A stretch of DNA of 23,413 nucleotides from a virus, in IMG/VR virus record IMGVR_UViG_3300021142_000185, positions 1 through 23,413 of that record. One strand, written 5' to 3'. The notes beneath the pieces are model-generated. The model was given only the letters and a program-made list of their open reading frames with translations, was not told the origin of the DNA and ran no database searches. The position numbers and the translations under genes are program-made. Below, piece after piece: positions 2 to 16,627 of the stretch; positions within the stretch are counted from its first letter, which is position 1; every line of letters begins with the position of its first letter.

Positions 2-682
2 CGTTTCATCTACCAAATCTATGGCTTGGCTTATGCCTTGACCAAAGTTTTGATGGAAGACGGCGATCACATCCGTATCGGTTCAACCTTCGCTAAGCAC
101 TTGGCTCAGTCTATGATTGAAACCAAAGAAACTCTTTGCGCCAACATCCTTAACTTTGCTTTCACAAGCGGTTATGTTGGTGGCGACGGCGTTACTTTGA
201 TCAACACAGCTCACCCAATCGCTAACGGCGCTTCTTACTCTAACCAGTTATCTACAGCTGCATCTTTGAGCCAAACTTCTGTTGAACAGATGTTGATTCA
301 GATTCGCTCTGCTGTTGACAACAACGGTAAGCGTATCCGCCTGAAGGCAGAGCAGTTAGTTGTTCCACCAGCACTCGAGTTCCAAGCTGAGGTTATCCTC
401 AAGTCTGTTCTCCGTTCTGGTACAGCTGACAACGATTTGAACCCAATCAAATCAACAGGCATGTTGCCTAAAGGCACACACGTGGTTACACGTTTGTCCT
501 CTAGCAAGGCTTGGTGGGTTCAGACTGATGCTGAGAATGGTCTCATGCTCGTTATGCGTCGTCCAATGGAAAAAAGTATGGAGGGCGATTTTGAGACTGA
601 CTCCATGCGTTATAAAGCCACTGAGCGATACGCAACAGGATGGCACGATGCACGTAACATCTACGGCACACCTGGTTTGTAA
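2..682 (+). CDS. Major capsid protein, C-terminal part (5' truncated by the window edge)
   Basis: This is the shell-forming protein of the head. The reading frame is open from the first bases of the window with no stop, so the gene starts upstream; a TTG eight codons into the visible frame is not taken as the start. About 226 residues are visible. The segments VTLINTAHPIANG, LVVPPALEFQAEVILKS, DNDLNPIKSTG and the ending ERYATGWHDARNIYGTPGL match the pattern I know from capsid proteins of the HK97 fold in the Mu gpT-like group of phages. The gene ends just before a strong intrinsic terminator, as expected for a very highly expressed capsid gene. The capsid call rests on recalled family patterns and position; the exact family is less certain than the role. 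Confidence 0.82.
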   Translation, partial: RFIYQIYGLAYALTKVLMEDGDHIRIGSTFAKHLAQSMIETKETLCANILNFAFTSGYVGGDGVTLINTAHPIANGASYSNQLSTAASLSQTSVEQMLIQIRSAVDNNGKRIRLKAEQLVVPPALEFQAEVILKSVLRSGTADNDLNPIKSTGMLPKGTHVVTRLSSSKAWWVQTDAENGLMLVMRRPMEKSMEGDFETDSMRYKATERYATGWHDARNIYGTPGL

Positions 683-701
683 TCCAAACCATTGCAACAC
701 C

Positions 702-730
702 AAAAAAGCCACCCACAAGGTGGCTTTTTT
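702..730 (+). terminator. Strong intrinsic terminator after the capsid gene
   Basis: A perfect 12-bp inverted repeat (AAAAAAGCCACC / GGTGGCTTTTTT) encloses a 5-nt loop CACAA, and the descending arm runs into a T tract (ctttttt gtttttt). It lies 20 nt after the capsid stop codon and 28 nt before the next promoter element. Because of the A and T tracts it could work in both directions. The arrangement of capsid gene then terminator resembles the T-phi position in phage T7. Confidence 0.9.
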
Positions 731-758
731 GTTTTTTAGGGCGCTTTGCAGCAATTTA

Positions 759-781
759 GCGTATTAGTAAATATAGGAAGA
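759..781 (+). promoter_or_regulatory. Putative phage RNA-polymerase promoter, copy 1
   Basis: The element GCGTATTAGTAAATATAGGA recurs at 13878 and 20997 with only small changes, always in an intergenic gap before a gene block. Aligned without gaps to the 23-nt T7 consensus, 14 positions agree, including TATAGG over the start site; by that alignment +1 is the G at 776. No sigma-70 pair of boxes is evident here. The leader to the next ATG is about 87 nt. Promoter function is inferred from recurrence, position and T7 resemblance. Confidence 0.72.
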
Positions 782-862
782 ATCATCCCATTCTGACCGC
801 TGAACTTCCCGGCGAGACGACTTAGAGACAGCTTGGGATACCCACTAAGATAAGGAATCAAA

Positions 863-1435
863 ATGTCAAGCACATTCACAGGCCCAATTCGCGTATTCAA
901 GCGCAATAACCCAACAAACAACGGCACAATCGCTCCAGATAACACTGGCGCAGTATCTGTAAACCAACAGAGCTTCATTACTAACCCAATCACTACAACC
1001 ACAGCCGGAACAACTTTGTTCACAACAGCTGACGTTGGTACAACTACAGCAACACCATACGTAATCCCAGCTGGTGCAATTATCAGCAACATTCGCTTTT
1101 TCCAAACTGTTGCAGCTGGCGGTTTAGTTGGTGGTGTTATCACTGTAGCTATTGCTCAAACTAACCCAACAACTGGTGCTGTAACTACTACCACTATCGG
1201 TACAATTACTCCTACAGCAGCTGGCGGTGTTATTTCTTATGTTCCAACAGCTACTGCAGCTACTGCAGCAATCTTGAACAACATCGGTACACTAGACGCT
1301 ACTTTGACTTTCACAGCAGCTGCAGTAACTACATTGACAAGCGGTTCTTTGAACGGCACATTTGATGTATCTTACACACCACGTAACGTTGATGGTTCAA
1401 TCACTGCCTACGGTGCTGGTTTAACTAACTCGTAA
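863..1435 (+). CDS. Small beta-rich virion protein, possibly head decoration
   Basis: The protein has 190 residues and is very rich in Thr, Ala, Val and Gly with almost no charged residues after the first 20, which fits an extended beta-sandwich virion protein. It has no signal peptide, TM helix or catalytic motif. The start is supported by AAGGAA seven nucleotides upstream of ATG. It is the first gene after the capsid gene and has its own promoter and, downstream, a hairpin, so it may be made in large amounts. Decoration or cement proteins often occupy this place, but I do not recognise the family and the role is inference from position and composition only. Confidence 0.6.
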   Translation: MSSTFTGPIRVFKRNNPTNNGTIAPDNTGAVSVNQQSFITNPITTTTAGTTLFTTADVGTTTATPYVIPAGAIISNIRFFQTVAAGGLVGGVITVAIAQTNPTTGAVTTTTIGTITPTAAGGVISYVPTATAATAAILNNIGTLDATLTFTAAAVTTLTSGSLNGTFDVSYTPRNVDGSITAYGAGLTNS

Positions 1436-1445
1436 TTAATTGCCT

Positions 1446-1463
1446 AGGGGGAGCAATCCCCCT
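1446..1463 (+). terminator. GC-rich hairpin with GCAA tetraloop; weak terminator or mRNA stabiliser
   Basis: AGGGGGA / TCCCCCT forms a 7-bp stem closed by the GNRA loop GCAA, 11 nt after the preceding stop codon. The stem is followed by TTGTTTAAC, a poor T tract, so termination would be partial at best. It may attenuate expression between the presumed decoration gene and the genes that follow, or protect the 3' end of a processed transcript. Confidence 0.45.
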
Positions 1464-1488
1464 TGTTTAACATTTAAGGAAATTAATT

Positions 1489-2301
1489 ATGGCACTCGTC
1501 ACAAATTTACAGCAAAATCCATCACCTCCTCATTCCGTAACCGTTCAAGGCGCTTATGAGCCGTTTGAACTTCAAGTGTCTCGTAACCAAATTATGGGCC
1601 ACAATACTGCAAATATTTTTGCTTACGGAACTACGCCTGCTACTGCAGGTTTATTTAGAACAGTTTGGGAAAACATGTCGACAACAGACTACGTGTTTCC
1701 TACGTCTGCGTCTACAATGACATTAGTAAGTACCGTTAATACAGATACTGCTACCATTGCAATTACCGGCTTAGATATAAATTACAACCTTCTTACTGAA
1801 AATTTGGTTTTGAATGGTACAACAGGTGTAACAACAGTTAATTCGTATTTCCGTATCAATAACATTTCGGTATCTGTAGGTTCAGCAACTAATCCTACAG
1901 GAGTTATTACGCTTGCTACTGGCGGAGTAACTTACGCACAAATCAATACACAAGTTGTTAACGGTGTTACCACCAGTATTGGTACGTCACAAATGGCTGT
2001 GTATACTGTACCTAACGGCTATACATTTTATGGGTATAGATACGGTGCATATTCGTCTTTTAACGGCAACAGTGCAAACTACACAACTTACAGAGCATTA
2101 ACAAATGCTTCTTCTGGTGTGCAAAGAGTTATTGTACAAACTCCATTTAATACCACTTATGAAGTTCAAAGGCATTTTCCTTTCCCTTATGCTAGCGGAA
2201 CAGATTTAAGATTCCAAGTTGCAAGCAGTGCCGCTACAGCCGCAGTTACTAGCGTAAACATCGGTGGTGTTTTAATCAAGAACAACGGTCAAACCGCTTA
2301 A
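1489..2301 (+). CDS. Beta-structured virion surface protein
   Basis: This 270-residue protein is rich in Thr, Asn, Val, Gly and Tyr. The stretch ITGLDINYNLLTENLVLNG, followed by RINNISVSVGS and QMAVYTVPNGYTFYGYRYG, fits a pattern I associate with uncharacterised structural proteins of marine and freshwater podoviruses and cyanophages. There is no enzyme motif or membrane segment. The start is supported by TAAGGAAATTAATT just before ATG. It lies between the presumed decoration gene and the IPT-domain gene, so a role on the head or tail exterior is likely. Family recognition is from memory, and function is unknown. Confidence 0.6.
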   Translation: MALVTNLQQNPSPPHSVTVQGAYEPFELQVSRNQIMGHNTANIFAYGTTPATAGLFRTVWENMSTTDYVFPTSASTMTLVSTVNTDTATIAITGLDINYNLLTENLVLNGTTGVTTVNSYFRINNISVSVGSATNPTGVITLATGGVTYAQINTQVVNGVTTSIGTSQMAVYTVPNGYTFYGYRYGAYSSFNGNSANYTTYRALTNASSGVQRVIVQTPFNTTYEVQRHFPFPYASGTDLRFQVASSAATAAVTSVNIGGVLIKNNGQTA

Positions 2302-2942: not shown

Positions 2943-4166
2943 ATGGCAAATTTACCGATAACGCAACTACCCGTAGCAACAAGCCTAACCGGCATAGAGC
3001 AAACGGTTGTAGTACAAAATGGTGTAACAAAACAGGCGTCTGTTTCCCAGATCGCCAATGCTGCCTCGCCCGGCAAATTAATTACCAATATTATTTACGA
3101 CCCAACAACGGGTAACCTAACCATTTATTTTAGCGACGGATCAACCGAGGTTGTCGGTCCTGTTTCTGGTTCTTCAGGCTTTTCTGGATACTCTGGTATT
3201 TCTGGCTTTAGTGGCTACTCTGGCATCTCTGGCTATTCTGGTAAATCCGGCTTTTCTGGCTACTCTGGCTACTCTGGTAGCGGAGTATCGGGTTATAGCG
3301 GCAGCGGCGTGTCGGGATACAGCGGTTATTCTGGCATCTCTGGATACTCTGGCACTTCTGGATACTCTAGCTTTAGTGGCTATTCTGGATACAGCGGTAT
3401 TTCTGGGTACTCTAGCTTTAGCGGCTATTCTGGTATTTCTGGATACTCTGGTACTTCTGGCTATTCTGGGTCTGGTGTTTCTGGTTATTCTGGGTCTGGT
3501 GTTTCTGGCTATTCTGGATCTGGCGTTTCCGGATACTCTGGCATCTCTGGATACTCTGGCATCTCTGGATACTCTGGCATCTCTGGATACTCTGGTACTT
3601 CCGGATACTCTGGCTACTCTGGTATTTCTGGGTACAGTGGTACTTCTGGATACTCTGGTACTTCTGGCTACTCTGGATCTGGTGTTTCTGGCTATTCTGG
3701 ATCTGGTGTTTCTGGCTATTCTGGCATTTCTGGATACTCTGGCATCTCTGGATACTCTGGCATCTCTGGATACTCTGGCTACTCTGGTACTTCTGGATAC
3801 AGTGGTACGTCAGGATACAGCGGGTACTCAGGATTCCCCGCAACAATTTTAACCGCCAGCATTACCACCGCAACAACCATTACACCAACTCCAAACACGG
3901 CTACTCAATACGAAGTAACCGCGTTGGCAACTTCGGCAACAATTGCAACTCCCTCTGGAACTCCAACAGACGGACAAAAATTAATTATTCGCATTAAAGA
4001 TAACGGAACCGCACAAGCACTTACTTGGACAACTACCAGCGGCGCGTATCGCGCGGTTGGTGTAACGTTGCCGGTAACAACGGTTGCGGGTAAAGTTTTA
4101 TATATTGGTTGCATTTATAACAGTCAAGATACTTTTTGGGACGCAGTAGCAACCGCGCAACAATAA
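2943..4166 (+). CDS. Collagen-like tail fibre protein 1
   Basis: The 407-residue protein has three parts. Residues 1-72 (LPITQLPVATSLTGIEQTVVVQNG) are the attachment-type N-terminus common in phage fibre proteins. Residues 75-298 are collagen-like Gly-X-Ser/Thr triplets (GYS, GIS, GTS, GFS) without proline. Residues 299-407 are a compact beta domain ending in FWDAVATAQQ. In homologous fibres such repeats form rigid trimeric rods. The triplet register is broken by seven Gly-Ser-Gly steps (GSGVS) and two Gly-to-Ser changes (GYSSFSG). No strong Shine-Dalgarno is visible (ACATAAAATAAATG), so translation may depend on the upstream gene. A role in host recognition is inferred from the family type. 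Confidence 0.78.
   Translation: MANLPITQLPVATSLTGIEQTVVVQNGVTKQASVSQIANAASPGKLITNIIYDPTTGNLTIYFSDGSTEVVGPVSGSSGFSGYSGISGFSGYSGISGYSGKSGFSGYSGYSGSGVSGYSGSGVSGYSGYSGISGYSGTSGYSSFSGYSGYSGISGYSSFSGYSGISGYSGTSGYSGSGVSGYSGSGVSGYSGSGVSGYSGISGYSGISGYSGISGYSGTSGYSGYSGISGYSGTSGYSGTSGYSGSGVSGYSGSGVSGYSGISGYSGISGYSGISGYSGYSGTSGYSGTSGYSGYSGFPATILTASITTATTITPTPNTATQYEVTALATSATIATPSGTPTDGQKLIIRIKDNGTAQALTWTTTSGAYRAVGVTLPVTTVAGKVLYIGCIYNSQDTFWDAVATAQQ
3163..3836 (+). repeat. Collagen-like coding repeat, 9/18-nt periodic
   Basis: About 75 copies of a 9-nt unit of type GGNTAYTCT/GGNATYTCT run in one frame. Some 18-nt units (GGATACTCTGGCATCTCT) are repeated identically in tandem, near 3530-3590 and again near 3730-3778, as part of a larger duplicated block coding for GSGVS-GYS-GSGVS-GYS-GIS units. 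Near-identity at DNA level implies recent expansion or gene conversion and probable length variation. The periodicity also creates long meaningless ORFs in other frames. Confidence 0.9.
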
Positions 4167-4342: not shown

Positions 4343-7072
4343 ATGGCTAACAGATATTGGGTTGGCGGTACAGGAACTTGGGATGCTACCGCTGGTACTA
4401 AATGGGCAACAACTTCTGGTGGTACTGGAGGTCAGGCCGTTCCTACAACTGCTGATAACGTATTTTTTGATGCTAATTCAGGTGCTAATACAGTAACTAT
4501 TGGTTCTGGAACAGCAATATGTAATGCACTAAATATAAATGCTTTTACAGGAACATTAGCATTTGGAACAAACAGCATCACAATATCTGGCAATAGTGCT
4601 TTTATGTTTAGTGGTGGAAGTGGCTATACATTAACTGGTACTCCGTTGTGTATATTAAACTCTACTAGCACAACTGGAACTAGAACTATATCCCCAGGTG
4701 GTGCATCTGAAGCCAATTCAATGAGTTTTAATATTACTGGCGGAACAGACACAATTACATCAAGCACCACTGCGGGTACAGCAACTTTTAAAAACTTAAA
4801 TCTTACAGGATTTGCAGGGACATTTGCAAATACTACTAAAACAATTTATGGTGATTTAACTCTACCTTCTAGTGGTTCAGGTGCAACAATATCCGCTGGT
4901 GTTAATACAATAACATTTGCATCTACTTTAGTCCAACAAAACATAACCAGTAATGGTTTTACAATGGACTTTCCTATTACAGTGTCGGGAACACAAACAG
5001 TTCAGCTTGTAGGTAATTTAACAATAGGCTCAACTAGAACATTTACTTTTACATCTGGCAATTTAAACTTAAATAACAATACTTTAAGTTGCGGAATATT
5101 TAGCTCGACAAACTCTAATACTCGGTCGATTGCTTTTGGTACTGGAAATATTACACTTACTGGCAATTCTGCTACTGTATGGGCTATGAGTACTGCTACG
5201 GGGTTTACTTTAACAGGCACACCTCAAGTTAATTTAACTTATTCAGGCTCTACAGGTACAAGAACAATATCTCATTCAAATACGGCTGGAGCTGTAGGAG
5301 AACTTGGTGCTATTAGTTTTACTTTTTCTGCATCAAGTGATGCTATTACTCTAACAAGTAATAGTTTTATTAAAAACTTAATATTTAGTTCTGGTTCTAC
5401 TAATACAGTTGCAAACTCAACAATATATGTTTATGGAAATTACACATTAGCTTCTGGCATGACATTGACTGCTGGAACAAATAACACAACATTTCTTTCT
5501 GGTTTAAGTACACAGCAAAACATTACCACCAACAGCGTCACACTTGATTTTCCAGTTTTTATAGGAGCAAGTATAACCCCTACTGGTATTACTGGTAGTG
5601 GTAGCACAGTCACAGTAACATATGCATCAACTTCAACATTTCCTGCAGTCGGCTCAACAATTACTGTAGCAAACGTAGTGCCATCTGCATATAACGGCAC
5701 TTTTACTGTAGTTTCATCATCTAATACAGGACTTACTTATTCAAGTTCTGCAACAGGAACAGTAACTACTTTTGGAACTGTTAGTCTAGCTAGTTGTACA
5801 GTTCAGCTTCAAGACGCAATGACTATGGGTACTAGTAGGACATTAACTTACAATAGCGGAACATTAGACTTAAACAGTAAAACGCTTACTACAGGATTCT
5901 TTTCAGCTAATAATGCTGCTCCTCGTAATATTTTATTTGGTACAGGACAAATTAACGTAGCAGGTAGTAATGGCAGTGTTTGGTCAAGCAGTAGTGCAAC
6001 AACGGTTCCATTTACTTACACGGGCACAAGTAAAATTAACTGCACTTATTCTGGCTCTGTAGGAACAAGAATTATAGGTGCCCAACAACAAACAGAAGCA
6101 AACGCACTTAACTTTTACATTACTGCTGGTTCTGATAACTTTCAAATTAATGGAAGTCGTGGCTATCAAACAATAGACTTTACTGGTTTTACCGGAACAT
6201 TCGGTTTAGTTCCAGCTAGTACAGGTAACGCAATTATTTATCAAAATCTTGTATTACCAGCAGCAGGGGTCGCTACAGGATTTGGTGCAAACAGCGCAAC
6301 ATACGGATTTAGTTTTAGTTCAGCAACAAATAGCCAAACATTTACTAGCAATGGTTATTCATTAGACACTACTATATTAAAACAAGCCGCAGGAAGTTTG
6401 ACATTAGTTGGGCCATTAACTTTAACATCTTCTGTTAGCACAGGGCAATTTACACTTTCTGGTGGAACATTTAGCACAGCTGGATATGCATTAAACTGCG
6501 CAATATTTAACTTTCAAAATACTGGTACTAAAACATTAACTTTAACTAATAGCACAGTAACTATTTCTGGCGGTACTTCTAATTCAGGATTTTCTGGTTC
6601 AAACACTAATACAACTTACAATTTAACAGGTTCAAACATTGTATTTACTAGCTCTGCTACTACATTTTTTAATGCTCCACTAGGCGTATTTCCTCAAGTT
6701 ACTATGGGTGGTACTGGAACACTTAATATTGGTCAAGCATCTGCTTCAAACACAATTACAACCTTAACAAATACAACACAGCCTTGTACTATCTCTTTAT
6801 TGGCAACTGCAACACAGCTTAATGTAACCAATTTAAATTTAAATGGTACGGCTGGCAATTTAGTTACATTAAATAGCACAGTATCAGGAACACAAGCTAC
6901 TATTAGTAAAACAAGCGGTCAAGTATCTGTCAACTATTTAAACATTCAAGACAGCAAAGCTACCGGCGGTGCTGCGTGGGACGCTTACTATTCCACCGAT
7001 TCTGGAAATAACACAGGCTGGTTTATCTCGTCAAACCTGTCAAACTTTTTAAATTTATTTGATAAACGATAG
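4343..7072 (+). CDS. Large beta-repeat tail or fibre protein
   Basis: The 909 residues begin MANRYWVGGTGTWDATAGTKWATTSGG, a pattern I recognise from phage structural proteins, and end in NNTGWFI followed by a short tail. The body is a low-charge Thr/Ser/Asn/Gly sequence with repeated landmarks: TGTRTIS near residues 111 and 304 and GTRII near 574; QQNIT at 198 and 391; M/LDFP at 208 and 401. The first two units are 193 residues apart. The next is about 270 apart because an extra module of about 70 residues (GITGSGSTVTVTY...PSAYNGTFTVV) is inserted near 411-480. A beta-helix or stacked beta-sandwich is expected. The DNA is more AT-rich than the neighbouring fibre gene. Likely a tail fibre or tail-associated protein; receptor binding is inference. 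Confidence 0.65.
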   Translation: MANRYWVGGTGTWDATAGTKWATTSGGTGGQAVPTTADNVFFDANSGANTVTIGSGTAICNALNINAFTGTLAFGTNSITISGNSAFMFSGGSGYTLTGTPLCILNSTSTTGTRTISPGGASEANSMSFNITGGTDTITSSTTAGTATFKNLNLTGFAGTFANTTKTIYGDLTLPSSGSGATISAGVNTITFASTLVQQNITSNGFTMDFPITVSGTQTVQLVGNLTIGSTRTFTFTSGNLNLNNNTLSCGIFSSTNSNTRSIAFGTGNITLTGNSATVWAMSTATGFTLTGTPQVNLTYSGSTGTRTISHSNTAGAVGELGAISFTFSASSDAITLTSNSFIKNLIFSSGSTNTVANSTIYVYGNYTLASGMTLTAGTNNTTFLSGLSTQQNITTNSVTLDFPVFIGASITPTGITGSGSTVTVTYASTSTFPAVGSTITVANVVPSAYNGTFTVVSSSNTGLTYSSSATGTVTTFGTVSLASCTVQLQDAMTMGTSRTLTYNSGTLDLNSKTLTTGFFSANNAAPRNILFGTGQINVAGSNGSVWSSSSATTVPFTYTGTSKINCTYSGSVGTRIIGAQQQTEANALNFYITAGSDNFQINGSRGYQTIDFTGFTGTFGLVPASTGNAIIYQNLVLPAAGVATGFGANSATYGFSFSSATNSQTFTSNGYSLDTTILKQAAGSLTLVGPLTLTSSVSTGQFTLSGGTFSTAGYALNCAIFNFQNTGTKTLTLTNSTVTISGGTSNSGFSGSNTNTTYNLTGSNIVFTSSATTFFNAPLGVFPQVTMGGTGTLNIGQASASNTITTLTNTTQPCTISLLATATQLNVTNLNLNGTAGNLVTLNSTVSGTQATISKTSGQVSVNYLNIQDSKATGGAAWDAYYSTDSGNNTGWFISSNLSNFLNLFDKR

Positions 7073-7148: not shown

Positions 7149-8369
7149 ATGAAATACAGCATTGTAATACCAACTTACAATAATTGTGAGAAGTACTTAA
7201 AGCCGTGTGTAGACTCGATTATTAAGTACACCGACTTGACCGATGTAGAGCTGATTATCAGCGCCAACGGGTGTACAGATAACACAGATAAGTACATTAA
7301 CTATCTGGCAAGCGCAATACCCCACTTTGATGCTATTTGGGATCCGGCACCCGCTGGGTTTGCAGTGGCTACAAACAGGGGCATTAAAAAGGCTAAGGGG
7401 GACAAAATCATCCTCCTTAACAACGACACCCAGCTATTGGGGCCAAATTGGATTGAGAAGTTAGACAGTGGTGCTGATATTTGCTCTGTGTGGACGCAGT
7501 TCTCACCCATTACCCAGCGTCGTTTTGCGGTGTTCTTCTGCGTGTTAATTGACGCCAAGGTGTTTAAAACCATTGGCTACCTTAACGAAGAATACAGCAC
7601 CGGTGGCTGTGAGGACATTGAGTTTTGCCTAAAAGCCCAAGATGCTGGGTTTACGATGGACGCAAACTGGGATAATGGTCAGTTTCCAATCTACCACAAG
7701 GCCGAGGGCACGATGCACGACCCGCAGCTGGTACAAGACTGGGGCAACAAGTTTTTGCTAAACGAACTTCGGTTAGCAAAGCAATACAACTTAGACTGGT
7801 ACCGCTGGCGCCTGTCAAACAACTACGAGCGGGCAGTATTCCTCAAAGGTGATCCAGTGTTTCCCCGTGAAACCCAAAGATACGAGTGGGCAGGGAAAAA
7901 CGTACTACCGGGCTCGGTGCTTGAGATTGGATGCTCTACAGGCTACGGTTACCAGTTTTTAAACACGCAAGCCTACATGGGTTTGGACTACGACCCAATT
8001 ATTATAAACGTAGCCAAAGAACAACAGTGGTCTGATAACGCAACGTTTTACCAAGCTGACATCAATACGTTTGATTTGGGGCGCTATGGCACGATTATAG
8101 CGTTCGAGGTAGTGGAGCACCTAGACAACGGCCTACAAGTCGTAGAGAGGCTAAAAGGGCACTGCAAACGCCTTTTAATTACCGTGCCTCACAACGAGCC
8201 AAAAGGCTTCTGGGGAGAGCACCACAAGCTGCATGGGTTGACTGAAAAAGACTTCCCTGGATTTACGTTTGAGTACATCGACTTTGAGGGTAACATTTCC
8301 TCGGTAATGCGCCAAGTAGACCAGAGCAATCCGGGCAACTTGATGATCTGCAGGTGGGACAATGAGTAA
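7149..8369 (+). CDS. Bifunctional glycosyltransferase (GT2) - SAM methyltransferase
   Basis: Residues 1-220 are a GT-A fold family 2 glycosyltransferase: YSIVIPTYNN at the start, PAGFAVATNRGI, the metal-site motif LLNNDT (NND 91-93) and the acceptor-side GCEDIEFC (153-160). Residues 250-406 are a class I methyltransferase: motif I VLEIGCSTGYG (257-267), the acidic residue after motif II in MGLDYD, then FEVVEHLD and LLITVPHNEP. One polypeptide could therefore transfer a sugar from a nucleotide-sugar donor and methylate the glycan. The start has AAGGA upstream. It opens a three-gene sugar-modification cluster and overlaps the next gene by 8 nt. The likely target is a virion glycoprotein or a cell-surface glycan; the substrate is unknown. 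Confidence 0.82.
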   Translation: MKYSIVIPTYNNCEKYLKPCVDSIIKYTDLTDVELIISANGCTDNTDKYINYLASAIPHFDAIWDPAPAGFAVATNRGIKKAKGDKIILLNNDTQLLGPNWIEKLDSGADICSVWTQFSPITQRRFAVFFCVLIDAKVFKTIGYLNEEYSTGGCEDIEFCLKAQDAGFTMDANWDNGQFPIYHKAEGTMHDPQLVQDWGNKFLLNELRLAKQYNLDWYRWRLSNNYERAVFLKGDPVFPRETQRYEWAGKNVLPGSVLEIGCSTGYGYQFLNTQAYMGLDYDPIIINVAKEQQWSDNATFYQADINTFDLGRYGTIIAFEVVEHLDNGLQVVERLKGHCKRLLITVPHNEPKGFWGEHHKLHGLTEKDFPGFTFEYIDFEGNISSVMRQVDQSNPGNLMICRWDNE

Positions 8370-9336
8370 AGTACTATGTTCCGTGGCAACACGGGGTAGG
8401 TACTTCACAACACTGCCCTTAGTATTAAATGCCATCATTAACCAATCCAAGCCGGTTGATAAGCTGATTGTCTACGATGACAATGACGAGCCGCAGGACA
8501 TGCGAAAAGAGTTTTTGTACCAGCACTTTTTTCAGATGTTAGATATTAAGGGTGTTGCATGGGAGTGGCAGTACGCTGACAAAAAAGGTCAGCACCACAT
8601 CCACCAACGAGCCAACCTAGCGGGTTTTGATTGGGTTTGGCGCGTTGACGATGACGCGGTACCTGAGTACAATGTACTAGAAGAGTTGTATCGTTGGATT
8701 GATATGTGGCCCGATTTGGGTGCTGTGGGTAGTCATATTTGGACACCACCAAACATACCAAACACCGCTGGCATAACTGGACGAATTGATAACATTGATT
8801 CAGAACCAAACATCCAGTGGGGCAAGTTTAATGTAGCCCAAGAAGTTGATCATCTACACTGTTCATTTTTATATCGTGCTGGTGTGGCAGATTATAATTT
8901 AGGACTATCTAGGGTAGCGCACAGAGAAGAGACGTTGTTTACTTTTCAGCTGCAGCAAAAAGGTTACAGCATTTTAGTAGTACCAAACGCCATTACCTGG
9001 CACATGAAGAATCCTGACGGCGGGATTCGTAGCGAGACAAGGAAGGAAATGTATGAGCATGATGAGCAGATTTTTAGAAATATTTTGCAGTACCGTGATC
9101 GTACCATTGTGGTTCTCAATTGTGGCCTTGGTGACCATATTGTATTCAGCCGCATACTTCCTTCAATACCTAACGCTGAAGTTTTTAGTTGTTACCCTGA
9201 AGTGGTTCCCGGCAGGTCAATAGCAGAGGCAGTGCAGCTATTTGGTGATCTTGACCCGTGGAACGTCTACAAGAAGATGAACCAGTGGAAGTGGAAAGAT
9301 AGTTTAGAAAAAGCATACCGGAAGATGTACTTATGA
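8362..9336 (+). CDS. Glycosyltransferase family 2 with C-terminal GT9-like segment
   Basis: Residues 1-240 look like a GT-A enzyme: VLCSVATRGRY, KLIVYDDND, WVWRVDDDAVPE with the DxD-type motif DDD (96-98), HREE (187-190) and the late TWHMKNPDGG. Residues 247-324 then change character: RTIVVLNCGLGDHIVFSRILP contains GLGDH (255-259), which is the N-terminal signature of GT-B family 9 heptosyltransferase-like enzymes. The missing GT9 C-terminal domain is coded by the next gene, which overlaps this one as ATGA. The two products may form a split enzyme. Sugar transfer is well supported; donor and acceptor are not known. Confidence 0.75.
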   Translation: MSKVLCSVATRGRYFTTLPLVLNAIINQSKPVDKLIVYDDNDEPQDMRKEFLYQHFFQMLDIKGVAWEWQYADKKGQHHIHQRANLAGFDWVWRVDDDAVPEYNVLEELYRWIDMWPDLGAVGSHIWTPPNIPNTAGITGRIDNIDSEPNIQWGKFNVAQEVDHLHCSFLYRAGVADYNLGLSRVAHREETLFTFQLQQKGYSILVVPNAITWHMKNPDGGIRSETRKEMYEHDEQIFRNILQYRDRTIVVLNCGLGDHIVFSRILPSIPNAEVFSCYPEVVPGRSIAEAVQLFGDLDPWNVYKKMNQWKWKDSLEKAYRKMYL

Positions 9337-9773
9337 TTATCATCTCCCCGTATGCACAAAAACTAAGAACAAATAAAGAAAACCCAAAAAACTATCCATA
9401 TTGGGAACAACTTGTACAAGAATTGCAAAAAACTATACATGTTGTGCAAATTGGCGTTGAGGGTGAAAAGCAATTAGTACCAGATTTTAGAAAGAATTTA
9501 CCGATTCCAGCTTTGCGAGAATTACTATGGCAATGTAAGACATGGATTGGAGTAGATAGTTTTTTTCAACATTTAGCTTGGGATGAAGGAGTACCCGGCA
9601 TCGTATTATGGGGGCCATCTGATCCGCTGATATTTGGACACCCAGAAAATATTAACCTACTAAAAGACCGATCATGTTTAGTAGAAAATCAGTTTATATG
9701 GTGGGAGGCCACCGAACACAGTAACGATCGCTTTGTAAAACCAAAAGAAATATTAGAGCACCTAAAGGAATAA
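9333..9773 (+). CDS. GT9-like C-terminal glycosyltransferase domain, stand-alone
   Basis: The 146 residues begin IIISPYAQKLRTNKENPKNYPYW and contain VVQIGVEGE, then WIGVDSFFQHLAWDEGVP and LWGPSDPLIFGHPEN. The latter two correspond to the donor-binding half of heptosyltransferase-type GT9 enzymes (DS, H and GPSDP at 75-98). A normal GT9 has an N-terminal Rossmann domain before this; here only a short GLGDH-bearing candidate is present, at the end of the upstream protein. ATG overlaps the upstream stop (ATGA), so translation is coupled. The DNA is AT-richer than the fibre gene that follows. The enzyme may act in complex with the upstream protein, or be a degenerate GT9. Confidence 0.68.
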   Translation: MIIISPYAQKLRTNKENPKNYPYWEQLVQELQKTIHVVQIGVEGEKQLVPDFRKNLPIPALRELLWQCKTWIGVDSFFQHLAWDEGVPGIVLWGPSDPLIFGHPENINLLKDRSCLVENQFIWWEATEHSNDRFVKPKEILEHLKE

Positions 9774-9776
9774 AAC

Positions 9777-11558
9777 ATGGCCCAATCCGGCTACACACCA
9801 ATTTCGTTGTACTACAGCGCCACCTCTGGGGTTGCCCCGACGGCAGGCAACCTTGTAAACGGTGAGCTGGCACTTAACATCACCGACGGCAAGATGTACT
9901 TTAAGAACACCAGCGGCGCAGTAACACTGCTTGCCTCCGTAGCTGGCGCTGCGGCAGCAGGCAATCTATCGGGTGGCACATCAGGCCAAATCCCTTACCA
10001 AAACGGTGTAAGCTCCACTGTGTTTATGGCCGCACCAAGTGTGTCTGGCACTTATCTTGGATGGAACGGTAGTGGCTTTTACTGGACATCTTCTACCGGC
10101 GCATCTGGTTTTAGTGGTTTTAGCGGCTTTAGTGGATATAGTGGCGGGACAGGAACTAACGGAACGTCTGGTTACAGCGGCCTTTCTGGCTACTCGGGCT
10201 ACAGTGGCTCTGGCGTGTCTGGTTACAGCGGCTCTGGCATCTCAGGTTACAGCGGCTTTTCTGGATACAGCGGTATTAATGGTTCTAGTGGTTCTTTAGG
10301 CATCTCGGGATACAGTGGATTTTCTGGCTACAGCGGATCTGGAGCCTCTGGTTACAGCGGTATTAGTGGCTACTCTGGTCAAAACGGATCAGCGGGTGCG
10401 TCGGGTTTTAGTGGATACTCTGGTTCAACGTCTTACACCGCAACCAACTTATCTGGCGGTTTTGTAAGCGCAACCAGTATTGCCTACACCACCACGTTAA
10501 CTGGCGGTACTGGTATTGTTAACTTAGGTTCTGGTCAGTTCTATAAAGACGCCAGCGGCAACGTGTCGATTGGCTCTACGTCTACGCCAGCCACCTTGTA
10601 CGTCAAGGGCGGCAACTCAAACAACCTGTCAATTGATAACGGTGGCCAGCAATATACCACTGTGTCACTATACAACAACGGCACCGAAAAGGCGCAGATG
10701 TACTGGGACCAAACCAACACGCTGTTCGTGTTTGGTACGGACGTAGGCGCACCGGTGGTGTTCAAGGCAGCTACCGTGGAGCGTATGCGCATCTCTAGCG
10801 CTGGCGGCGTGTCGATCGGCACGTCAACAGACGCGGGCGCAGGCAACTTGCTAGTAAACGGCACGATAAATGGTACAACAATAACAGCCTCTACTCAGTT
10901 TAGTGGTCCAGGTACTGGGTTAACAGGAACTGCCGCTGGATTATCAATTGGAGGAAACGCGGCCACAGCCACAACAGCAGCAAACGGCGGCGTAACTTCT
11001 GTTAATGGTAGTACAGGAGCTGTGTCTCTACCTGCAGCAGTCGGTGTGCTCGGCCAAGTCTTTACAGCTAACGGAACATTTACAGTTCCTGCTGGAGTTA
11101 CAGCAGTTAAAGTATCTATATGTTCTGGTGGTGGCGGCGGCGGTGGCGGTGCATTTTCAGGAGCTACTAGTGGTGGGTCTGGTGGTTCATCGTCTTTTGG
11201 CTCTTATGTAGTAATTGGAACAAGTGGAGGTGGTGCAGGGTCTAGTAATCAAAGTGCTGGAACTCATTCGGGAGCAAATGGAACAAGTGGTTCTATTACT
11301 GGCGGAACTTCGTATGTTTTGCCATCCATTACTGGGAGAGGAGGTAATGGAGTTGGGGGACAAAACACAACTCTTATTTGTTGTGGAACTACTCCATGCA
11401 CAAACATTGGTGGGGTTGGTGGTTCGTCTAGCACAGTCGGCTATGTAACTGGTTTAACTCCTGGTGGCTCAGTTACTGTAACTGTTGGTGCGGCTGGTAC
11501 TGCTGGTAGTCCTAATGGTACTGCTGGTGTAGCTGGTTTTGTTCTGATTGAATGGTAA
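9777..11558 (+). CDS. Collagen-like tail fibre protein 2 with glycine-rich tip
   Basis: The 593 residues begin SGYTPISLYYSATSGVAPTAGNLVNGELALNITDG, in the style of many phage fibre N-termini. Residues 110-217 are collagen-like Gly-X-Ser triplets (GFS, GYS) with GSGVS, GSGIS and GSGAS register breaks. A middle part (ERMRISSAGGVSIGTSTDAGAGNLLVNGTI) is the fibre or spike pattern often seen before a tip. The C-terminus (VFTANGTFTVPAGVTAVKV, then an eight-Gly run, GGVGGSSSTV and VAGFVLIEW) is the glycine-rich domain of phage adhesins, comparable in composition to polyglycine-II tips of T4-like gp38 adhesins. AAAGGAATAAAAC precedes ATG. It is the best candidate here for the receptor-binding tip. 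Confidence 0.78.
   Translation: MAQSGYTPISLYYSATSGVAPTAGNLVNGELALNITDGKMYFKNTSGAVTLLASVAGAAAAGNLSGGTSGQIPYQNGVSSTVFMAAPSVSGTYLGWNGSGFYWTSSTGASGFSGFSGFSGYSGGTGTNGTSGYSGLSGYSGYSGSGVSGYSGSGISGYSGFSGYSGINGSSGSLGISGYSGFSGYSGSGASGYSGISGYSGQNGSAGASGFSGYSGSTSYTATNLSGGFVSATSIAYTTTLTGGTGIVNLGSGQFYKDASGNVSIGSTSTPATLYVKGGNSNNLSIDNGGQQYTTVSLYNNGTEKAQMYWDQTNTLFVFGTDVGAPVVFKAATVERMRISSAGGVSIGTSTDAGAGNLLVNGTINGTTITASTQFSGPGTGLTGTAAGLSIGGNAATATTAANGGVTSVNGSTGAVSLPAAVGVLGQVFTANGTFTVPAGVTAVKVSICSGGGGGGGGAFSGATSGGSGGSSSFGSYVVIGTSGGGAGSSNQSAGTHSGANGTSGSITGGTSYVLPSITGRGGNGVGGQNTTLICCGTTPCTNIGGVGGSSSTVGYVTGLTPGGSVTVTVGAAGTAGSPNGTAGVAGFVLIEW
10104..10425 (+). repeat. Second collagen-like coding repeat
   Basis: A Gly-X-Ser coding array is shorter and less regular than that of the first fibre and uses more AGC/AGT serine codons (GGYTACAGCGG). 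It is interrupted by GGTGTNGTS, GINGSSGSLG and GQNGSAGAS stretches. The difference in codon choice suggests that the two fibre genes are not a recent duplication of one another although the repeat logic is the same. Confidence 0.8.
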
Positions 11559-14964: not shown

Positions 14965-16032
14965 ATGGCTTATAGCAACACCACTGGCCAAACAACAATT
15001 AGTGTTGACCAGTTAATTTCCTATGCGTTCCGTGATGCTGGTAAAACAGCAGAAGAAATCACGCCTGAGTATATTGGCGCTGCTAAGCAAGCGTTGTTTT
15101 ACAACCTGCAAAACCTATCCAATCTCGGGGTAAACCTTTGGCTCTTAGAGAACCAGTTATATGGCGCTCTAACAGCACAACAGCAACTAACACTGCCAAA
15201 AACCACGATTGATGTTCGTGAGGCTAACTGGGTGTACATTATCAACTCTCAGGCATCTTCATACTTGCCTACAGACAATACCCTATCCCCAGCAGCGTTT
15301 GACCAAAACCTTAATACCATTGCTACTTCTACAGTAAGCGAAAATTGGCTTGGATTGCAGTACGCCCAAGCGCAACCAGTGTTTTATGTTGGTTTTAATG
15401 GGTACAATGCAACTGGCGGAACCACAACATACAACTTTGCGTACGAGGTAAGCGACGACGGCGCCACATGGACTACCGTACAGCAGCTACCGACTACTAC
15501 GCTATCAGATCGTCAGTGGGCGTATTTTAACATTGCCATCACACCAAATCACCTTTATTATAGACTAAGAGAAACCGTAGCGACCACATTTACTGTTCGC
15601 GAGATTGTGTTCTCTACCAGTCAACAGGTTATTCCATTGGCTCGCCTAAACCGCGACGACTACTGGAATCTTCCTAACAAACAATTCCCTTCTGTTCGTT
15701 CATTACAGTATTGGTACGACCGCACCATTGAGCCATCAATGTACTTGTGGCCAGTCCCAAACAATGACTTCCAAATGTTCCAGCTTCTTGTTGAAAAACA
15801 AATGGAAGACGTTGGTTCATTGACAAACCAGATCTATGTACCAGACCGTTGGATCACTTCAGTACAAGCCAGTCTGTCACACAAACTGTCGCTTCAACTA
15901 CCTGGCGTAGATATGACACGCGTTCAGTATTTAGAACAGCAAGCAGATAAGCTATTTATGCAAGCCTCTAACGAAGAACGTGACAAATCGCCAATTTATT
16001 TTGCTCCAGTAATTTCGTATTACACCAAATAG
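14965..16032 (+). CDS. Head-tail adaptor, P22 gp4-like, with inserted discoidin-like domain
   Basis: Residues 1-92 (QLISYAFRDAGKTAEEITPEYIGAAKQALFYNLQNLSN) and 225-330 (YWNLPNKQFPSVRSLQYWYDR, YLWPVPNNDFQMFQLLVEKQME, VPDRWITSVQASLSHKLSLQLPGVD) form an alpha-helical adaptor of the P22 gp4/SU10-type group that sits under the portal. Between them, about residues 95-217, lies a beta-rich insert (LSPAAFDQNLNT, NWLGLQYAQ, YEVSDDGATWTTVQQLP, YYRLRETVATTFTVREIVFS) with the pattern of an F5/8 type C (discoidin) domain. Such domains usually bind sugars or are displayed on the outside. The gene starts one base after the preceding stop. Adaptor role is inferred from family resemblance and order. Confidence 0.68.
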   Translation: MAYSNTTGQTTISVDQLISYAFRDAGKTAEEITPEYIGAAKQALFYNLQNLSNLGVNLWLLENQLYGALTAQQQLTLPKTTIDVREANWVYIINSQASSYLPTDNTLSPAAFDQNLNTIATSTVSENWLGLQYAQAQPVFYVGFNGYNATGGTTTYNFAYEVSDDGATWTTVQQLPTTTLSDRQWAYFNIAITPNHLYYRLRETVATTFTVREIVFSTSQQVIPLARLNRDDYWNLPNKQFPSVRSLQYWYDRTIEPSMYLWPVPNNDFQMFQLLVEKQMEDVGSLTNQIYVPDRWITSVQASLSHKLSLQLPGVDMTRVQYLEQQADKLFMQASNEERDKSPIYFAPVISYYTK

Positions 16033-16033
16033 C

Positions 16034-16627
16034 ATGTTCTATACATACGCGCACACTAAACCAAATGGGACTATTTTCTATATTGGAAAAGGTATTAAAA
16101 GACGTGCGTGGAAAACACACAATAGAAATTTACATTGGAAATCTATTGTACAAAAACATGGAAGTTTTAATGTTGAAATTTTAGCTAATTGGGATACTGA
16201 AGAAGAAGCCTTTAGTCATGAAGTATTATTAATTAAATGTTTTAATGATTTAGGATATTCATTAGCTAATAAAACAAATGGTGGTGAAGGTGCTTCTGGT
16301 TATAAACACTCAGATGAAACTAAATTAAAAATGAAACATATAACATCTGAAAAAACAAAACAAAAAATTAGTATTGCTAGAAAAGGTAAATATTGCGGAA
16401 AAAATCACCCTAGATTTGGAAAAATTGTTTCTCAACAAACTAGAGAAAAAATGAGAATTGCTAATGCTGGCGGAGCCAATAATCCCCAAACACGAAAAAT
16501 CAAATTTAATGATGTTATTTTTACCGGAATACAAACATTAGCAGATTTTCAAAAATTACATTACAAAACAATTGCATATAGAATAAAAACAAACCCTGCA
16601 AAATGGGGATACGAGGTTTTAAAATGA
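16034..16627 (+). CDS. GIY-YIG homing endonuclease, free-standing
   Basis: The N-terminus FYTYAHTKPNGTIFYIGKGIKRRAW carries the GIY-YIG module (YTY at 3-5, FYIGKG at 15-20, Arg23/24), with Glu63 as the likely metal-binding residue. Residues 88-147 contain NUMOD3-like DNA-binding repeats (HSDETKLKMK, SEKTKQKISIARKGK, SQQTREKMRIANAGG), and the end resembles a NUMOD1-type helix-turn-helix (FTGIQTLADFQKLHYKTIAYRIKTN). The DNA is clearly more AT-rich than its neighbours, which indicates transfer. It has no own Shine-Dalgarno and starts 1 nt after the adaptor stop codon, so it may be read by re-initiation. Such genes copy themselves into related phages lacking the insertion by cutting near the site. 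Confidence 0.85.
   Translation: MFYTYAHTKPNGTIFYIGKGIKRRAWKTHNRNLHWKSIVQKHGSFNVEILANWDTEEEAFSHEVLLIKCFNDLGYSLANKTNGGEGASGYKHSDETKLKMKHITSEKTKQKISIARKGKYCGKNHPRFGKIVSQQTREKMRIANAGGANNPQTRKIKFNDVIFTGIQTLADFQKLHYKTIAYRIKTNPAKWGYEVLK

Follow-up and report, generated by a model that had tools for sequence, protein, structure and literature searches.

A glycosyltransferase cassette associated with serine-type collagen-like fibre genes in a freshwater phage

A gene cassette predicted to act on the phage's own collagen-like fibres was identified in IMG/VR record IMGVR_UViG_3300021142_000185, one virus record from a freshwater phage, analysed here over a stretch of 23,413 bases (the window). The cassette contains three open reading frames (ORFs). 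ORF1, ORF2 and ORF3 encode a family 2 glycosyltransferase (GT2) fused to a methyltransferase, a second GT2-like enzyme (GT2b) and a GT9-like domain (GT9c), respectively. The original prediction took them for one coupled unit, which was confirmed by Pfam matches and by overlapping reading frames: ORF1 and ORF2 share 8 nucleotides (nt), and ORF2 and ORF3 share an ATGA stop/start (Table 1). The gene order, the overlap, the predicted folds and the tie of the cassette to fibre rods with Ser at the Y position of the Gly-X-Y triplet are observed. The cassette enzymes probably O-glycosylate and methyl-cap the serines of the phage's own Gly-X-Ser fibres. Glycosylation of the phage's own fibres had been proposed earlier; the co-occurrence described below supports it, narrowed to Ser, with the modification, the sugar and the methyl capping as predictions.

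The association was analysed starting from the cassette, using the best 80 of 283 ORF1 relatives. GT2b follows ORF1 in all 80 and GT9c is present in 75, the contig ending inside GT2b in the other five. A Gly-X-Ser ORF was defined as an ORF with at least five Ser-Gly-x-Ser-Gly (SGxSG) motifs; this count replaced a detector of runs of six triplets, which overlooked interrupted arrays in L058, L062, L129 and L133. Such an ORF was found in 77 of the 80 cassette loci, directly adjacent (<200 nt) on the upstream side in 31 loci and on the downstream side in 50, and the three loci that miss it have no more than 150 nt of sequence left on one side of the cassette. At cassette loci Ser is the commonest residue at Y in 90 of 91 arrays, versus 3 of 76 among Gly-Pro-X control arrays. 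This contrast, together with the recurrence of gene order and overlap in relatives, places the cassette beyond chance. Further loci found by GT2b carry a Gly-X-Ser ORF in 54 of 64 cases; among the ten without one, L327, L331 and L334 have long downstream and short upstream DNA. Two cassettes were found irrespective of fibres. The Methylophilaceae phage P19250A, which belongs to a different phage type, carries a rod of 280 triplets (KX815270, ORF 0023), 80% of them with Ser at Y, beside a methyltransferase-GT2b-GT9c set, and contig L162 from a metagenome-assembled genome (MAG) likewise has a rod beside the cassette. The cassette contigs L162 and L163 were binned in Nitrosotalea and Mucilaginibacter MAGs; they are probably misbinned phage contigs and are uninformative on the host.

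A second comparison started from the capsid gene. Among the best 80 capsid loci, the 47 that extend 5 kb or more beyond the capsid gene were kept (33 shorter ones were dropped), and their entire records were searched for GT2b. All 26 GT2b carriers have SGxSG ORFs, whereas 18 of 21 non-carriers have none; the other three (L108, L110 and L139) have them and end before the place of the cassette. The Fisher p value of 1e-12 for 26/0 versus 0/18 is nominal, as the records are related. At least eight state changes were counted on the capsid-gene tree, and the independent pairs on well-supported branches agree in 4 of 4 cases. Carrier arrays (37 arrays of at least 15 triplets, 3,742 triplets) have Tyr, Ile or Phe at X, Pro there at about 0.01 and Ser at Y at 0.92. 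Non-carrier arrays (17 arrays, 381 triplets, admitted from 8 triplets upwards, being short) have Pro (0.42) or Ala (0.34) at X and Thr (0.61) at Y, with a median Ser of 0. Another GT2 occurs in three of the 18 non-carriers and a GT9 in none. Judged by the capsid, the closest isolates are Caulobacter phages, among them RW (68% identity). The 20 kb of RW that were read contain no SGxSG ORF, and its whole record gave no match to GT2 or GT9. The 80 best IMG/VR relatives of the capsid show 95-100% protein identity, while the cassette enzymes that follow are much more variable; it seems that host-interaction genes are swapped behind an almost constant capsid.

A third comparison started from the fibre: a DNA pattern encoding repeats of Gly-Tyr-(Ser/Thr-like) was found in at least 120 stretches in IMG/VR; all counts are among the matches listed. 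Records were classed as Ser-type when 0.7 or more of the triplets had Ser at Y, a limit that was set after the first 50 records and applied unchanged to the next 67. From the second set the duplicates L245 and L270 were excluded, and a weak partial GT2b match in L279 (6.6e-19) was scored as absent. GT2b is present in 23 of 36 Ser-type records versus 0 of 14 others in the first set, in 29 of 41 versus 1 of 26 in the next and in 52 of 77 versus 1 of 40 overall; both sets contain near-copies and p values are nominal. The sole record outside the Ser-type class with GT2b, L244, has 71 SGxSG motifs. A Gly-Pro-X control pattern gave GT2b in 0 of 119 stretches, and the general GT2 family PF00535 was matched in 32 of 50 Gly-Tyr-pattern records versus 13 of 50 control records.

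ORF1 matches two families over its two parts (Table 1). Its GT2 part is optional, since P19250A carries the methyltransferase part only. In PADLOC the cassette gave a weak methyltransferase match only. GT2b matches PF00535 just under the cut-off (1.5e-4, 22.2 bits, cut-off 23.3); all 38 aligned GT2b relatives match this family at E<=0.1, the best at 1.4e-10. PHROGs gave a weak unnamed match only. Residues D96-D98, H214 and G257-D258-H259 are invariant in the 38-sequence alignment. With the GT2b model, polypeptide N-acetylgalactosamine (GalNAc) transferases rank first in both Foldseek and VIA-align; in the latter the GT27 polypeptide GalNAc-transferases fill the first 19 rows (Z 18.0-19.2; top 242 residues, 3.5 Å). 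A GT2b profile gave no match to GT27 GalNAc-transferases among PDB sequences at E<=1. The enzymes contain no strongly hydrophobic segment, the top 19-residue Kyte-Doolittle mean being 1.58.

ORF3 holds the C-terminal half of a GT9 enzyme alone, the two Rossmann domains not being in one chain. It matches only positions 174-218 of the 247 in PF01075 (GT9; 23.3 bits, cut-off 22) and, by sequence, WaaC 180-294 (E 8e-5); no PHROGs match was obtained. The entire GT9c model aligns with the second TibC domain (residues 218-385; Z 13.9, 2.6 Å, 138 residues). WaaF (Z 13.6) and WaaC (Z 13.4) are also among the GT9 rows, which span 13.1-13.9 versus 11.6 for the next row. The likely N-half of the GT9 lies at the C-terminus of GT2b, whose last 81 residues contain an invariant G-x-G-D-H loop. 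By hhalign this C-terminal end aligns with WaaF residues 3-75, in register at the WaaF start but weakly (E 0.16); no GT9 was found among the PDB sequence matches of GT2b. Asp-110 is catalytic in TibC according to the available text of PMC4358343. This residue precedes the stretch matched by GT9c, in line with a catalytic Asp on the missing half. A sequencing error or frameshift as the origin of the split was ruled out by the ATGA overlap, kept in every copy with both ORFs, and by L469, in which the parts lie about 950 nt apart. No fused GT2b-GT9c chain was found, and GT9c is separate in L466, L467, L468 and L469, whose long frames read methyltransferase-GT2b, GT2-GT2-methyltransferase-GT2b, GT2-GT2b and methyltransferase-GT2b, respectively (domains partly read by eye). 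A GT9 divided over two proteins looks unusual.

In the pathway that we infer for the protein acceptor, the order of transfer, the sugar, the methyl cap and the assembly of the split GT9, GT2b would put the first sugar on the Y-position Ser of the Gly-X-Ser rods. GT9c and the GT2b C-terminal piece would together form a GT9-type enzyme that takes a heptose-type sugar from an ADP-sugar and either adds it next or makes the attachment itself. The optional GT2 part of ORF1 would extend the chain and the methyltransferase would cap it. Besides the co-occurrence, O-glycosylation of the Y-position Ser is suggested by a Ser specificity like that of TibC and by the lack of strongly hydrophobic segments in the enzymes; the folds nearest to the models, which include two protein-glycosylating enzyme families, would also fit it. 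In a jumbo-phage relative (L480:2-11484, from a 370-kb record), dTDP-sugar-type genes (nucleotidyl transferase, dehydratase and RmlD-like) precede GT2b-GT9c and a fibre-like gene, as does a 2,182-residue protein with GT17, GT2 and methyltransferase domains. Because the rods with the cassette are nearly proline-free, glycoserine may take the stabilising part of proline, and such glycan-for-proline stabilisation has a precedent in worm cuticle collagen. It is doubtful, though conceivable, that the cassette is a dedicated machine that places a methyl-capped heptose-type glycan on nearly every Gly-X-Ser triplet in the role of proline and so allows long proline-free rods, with a GT9 active only as a two-protein complex whose N-half sits on a polypeptide-O-glycosyltransferase-like enzyme.

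Several observations weigh against glycosylation of the fibres. A cassette often present where such fibres are absent had been named beforehand as counter-evidence; close relatives do not show it (3/80, all truncated contigs), but distant ones do in L478 and the near-identical L480-482, which have no Gly-X-Ser arrays in 16-21 kb. In a distant set of ten relatives from two GT2b queries (40-47% identical; query loci excluded) only three have Gly-X-Ser arrays, three of the misses being shorter than 5 kb. The predicted co-occurrence is looser in the converse direction: 25 of 77 Ser-type records have no GT2b. Many of these are short, yet the GT2b-less contigs L164, L174, L176, L181, L184, L208, L215, L252 and L273 span 26-155 kb. 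The well-supported tree contrasts number only four (sign test p 0.125), and joint module transfer can inflate the link, since fibre and cassette are neighbours. In the fold comparison the GalNAc-transferases lead other GT-A enzymes (Z 17-18) by 1-2 Z only.

A role in the host envelope is unlikely. The enzymes would then alter host lipopolysaccharide (LPS) or O-antigen against superinfection, the fibre neighbourhood being a shared host-recognition module; ORF1 has GtrB-like PHROG matches (6.9e-8), LPS-core GT9 enzymes are close by fold, and this is a usual interpretation of aquatic-phage glycosyltransferases near tail fibres in the available text of PMC7029224. Modification of LPS does not, however, predict Ser instead of Thr at the Y position of the fibre, and no hydrophobic anchor was seen. 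The genes do neighbour each other and change state together on the capsid tree, as expected if cassette and fibre were passengers of one exchanged recombination module with no functional tie. Their pairing is nevertheless kept in several phage types, down to about 32-40% GT2b identity and across kilobase gaps in some, which makes mere passengers very unlikely, with the limit that most GT2b-distant cases were found via their Gly-X-Ser pattern. Phage glycosyltransferases acting on DNA, capsid and tail tube have been reported (PMC12619734, available part); here the genes sit beside fibre genes and are tied to Ser at Y, and another structural protein or phage DNA as the target is extremely improbable.

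Sugars on the phage's own fibres are, to our knowledge, known so far in few phages only. Mycobacteriophage virions are reportedly glycosylated by phage-encoded glycosyltransferases (Freeman et al. 2023). A Gly-Pro-Thr collagen-like spore protein bears O-glycans, some of them methylated, on a rod with a fixed hydroxy residue; it is no phage fibre and is served by other enzymes. Two GT-B halves are located on separate proteins in Alg13/Alg14, which belongs to another family, whereas the probable N-half here is fused to a GT-A enzyme. The following comparisons rest on the available text of the papers cited. In mycobacteriophages the glycans are on the phage's own virion proteins, as predicted here, but at the C-terminal ends of the capsid and tail tube subunits (cited in PMC12619734) rather than on Gly-X-Ser fibre rods, and the enzymes differ. 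TibC, an autotransporter-heptosyltransferase (AAH) type enzyme, heptosylates Ser and not Thr in the mapped peptide, and shares the GT9-type C-terminal fold and Ser acceptors in a surface protein (PMC4358343); unlike the split GT9 here it is one chain and forms a dodecamer. The BAHT/TibC family is marked by a dodecamer, iron and an autotransporter substrate; no autotransporter gene was noticed in the window. Mimivirus L230 is likewise a viral enzyme whose glycosylation substrate is a collagen-like protein of the virus, but its target is lysine, which it hydroxylates and, as hydroxylysine, glucosylates (PMC9614988).

Glycosyltransferases of aquatic phages are explained as modifiers of DNA or LPS (PMC7029224, PMC10202952), the common reading of phage glycosyltransferases; a cassette that tracks Ser rather than Thr in the fibre of the same phage gives a testable substrate, and P19250A is a cultured phage that carries it. 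If the prediction is true, an added class of glycosylated phage fibres would recur in freshwater viromes, and the cassette would be a natural tool for decorating collagen-like proteins. The joining of a phage cassette to Gly-X-Ser rods is absent from the available portions of PMC7029224, PMC10202952, PMC12619734, PMC4358343 and PMC9614988. No paper on glycosylated phage collagen-like fibres was recognised from titles and the starts of abstracts, in a search that lay outside most subscription journals.

Other enzymes were seen beside rods when 13 GT2b-negative neighbourhoods from the first 50 fibre-first records were read by eye and ten of their ORFs were searched in Pfam. L192 contains UDP-glucose dehydrogenase and UDP-galactopyranose mutase genes near a Ser-type rod. 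L215 contains two 2-oxoglutarate-Fe(II) oxygenases (390-1582, minus strand) beside a rod with 591 SGxSG motifs, a possible case of a hydroxylated phage collagen-like rod. In L191 (301-6075) a GT2, a GT2-methyltransferase fusion and two DXD-type transferases, unrelated to the cassette, lie directly before a Gly-X-Thr rod, as if set for threonine. These examples, picked by eye, look like parallel solutions.

The structural module of the window has the order capsid, TIG-domain ORF, Gly-X-Ser fibre, 909-amino-acid (aa) ORF, cassette and second Gly-X-Ser fibre, and continues to an SU10-type adaptor gene. The cassette was originally placed between two fibre genes. This applies in a wide sense: the downstream fibre adjoins it, with an ATG 3 bases past the cassette end preceded by AAGGA, but the upstream fibre lies about 3 kb before it, separated by a 67-aa ORF and the 909-aa ORF. 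Of the regularly spaced Ser and Thr described for the rods, Ser at Y is the regular residue and Thr is minor.

Table 1. Features of the window (AF2, AlphaFold2; pLDDT, predicted local distance difference test)
Feature	Position	Strand	Evidence
Capsid gene, Mu-like gpT, apparently cut by left window end	26-682	+	
Upstream Gly-X-Ser fibre gene	2943-4166	+	Pfam Collagen 3.5e-24; 60 triplets, Ser at Y in 59, no Pro at X
909-aa structural-looking ORF between upstream fibre and cassette	4343-7072	+	No family match in Pfam or PHROG
ORF1: GT2 (~residues 1-110) fused to class I methyltransferase (~249-350)	7149-8369	+	PF00535 1.3e-17 (64.7 bits); PF13489 1.4e-7
ORF2 (GT2b): GT-A glycosyltransferase with 81-residue C-terminal Rossmann-like piece, probable GT9 N-half	8362-9336	+	AF2 pLDDT 93.3
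ATGA stop/start overlap of ORF2 and ORF3	9333-9336	+	76/76 copies with both ORFs, the window's own (L001) included
ORF3 (GT9c): stand-alone C-terminal, donor-binding half of GT9 heptosyltransferase	9333-9773	+	PF01075 4.7e-5; AF2 pLDDT 92.7
Downstream Gly-X-Ser fibre gene	9777-11558	+	32 triplets, 26 with Ser at Y; PHROG 1806 collagen-like minor tail 1.8e-5
Cupin/FdtA-like ORF, 92 aa	11889-12167	+	PF05523 5.8e-4, below cut-off
Structural ORF with F5/8 type C domain match	14965-16032	+	3.1e-5, weak, below cut-off
GIY-YIG/NUMOD3 homing-endonuclease-like ORF	16034-16627	+	

Three further ORFs follow the second fibre. The cupin/FdtA-like ORF recurs in 6 of the 80 cassette loci and may be part of a glycan pathway; FdtA acts on nucleotide sugars. 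The domain weakly matched in the structural ORF is often sugar-binding. The homing-endonuclease-like ORF sits between two structural genes and falls in the lowest-GC kilobase of the window (34%).
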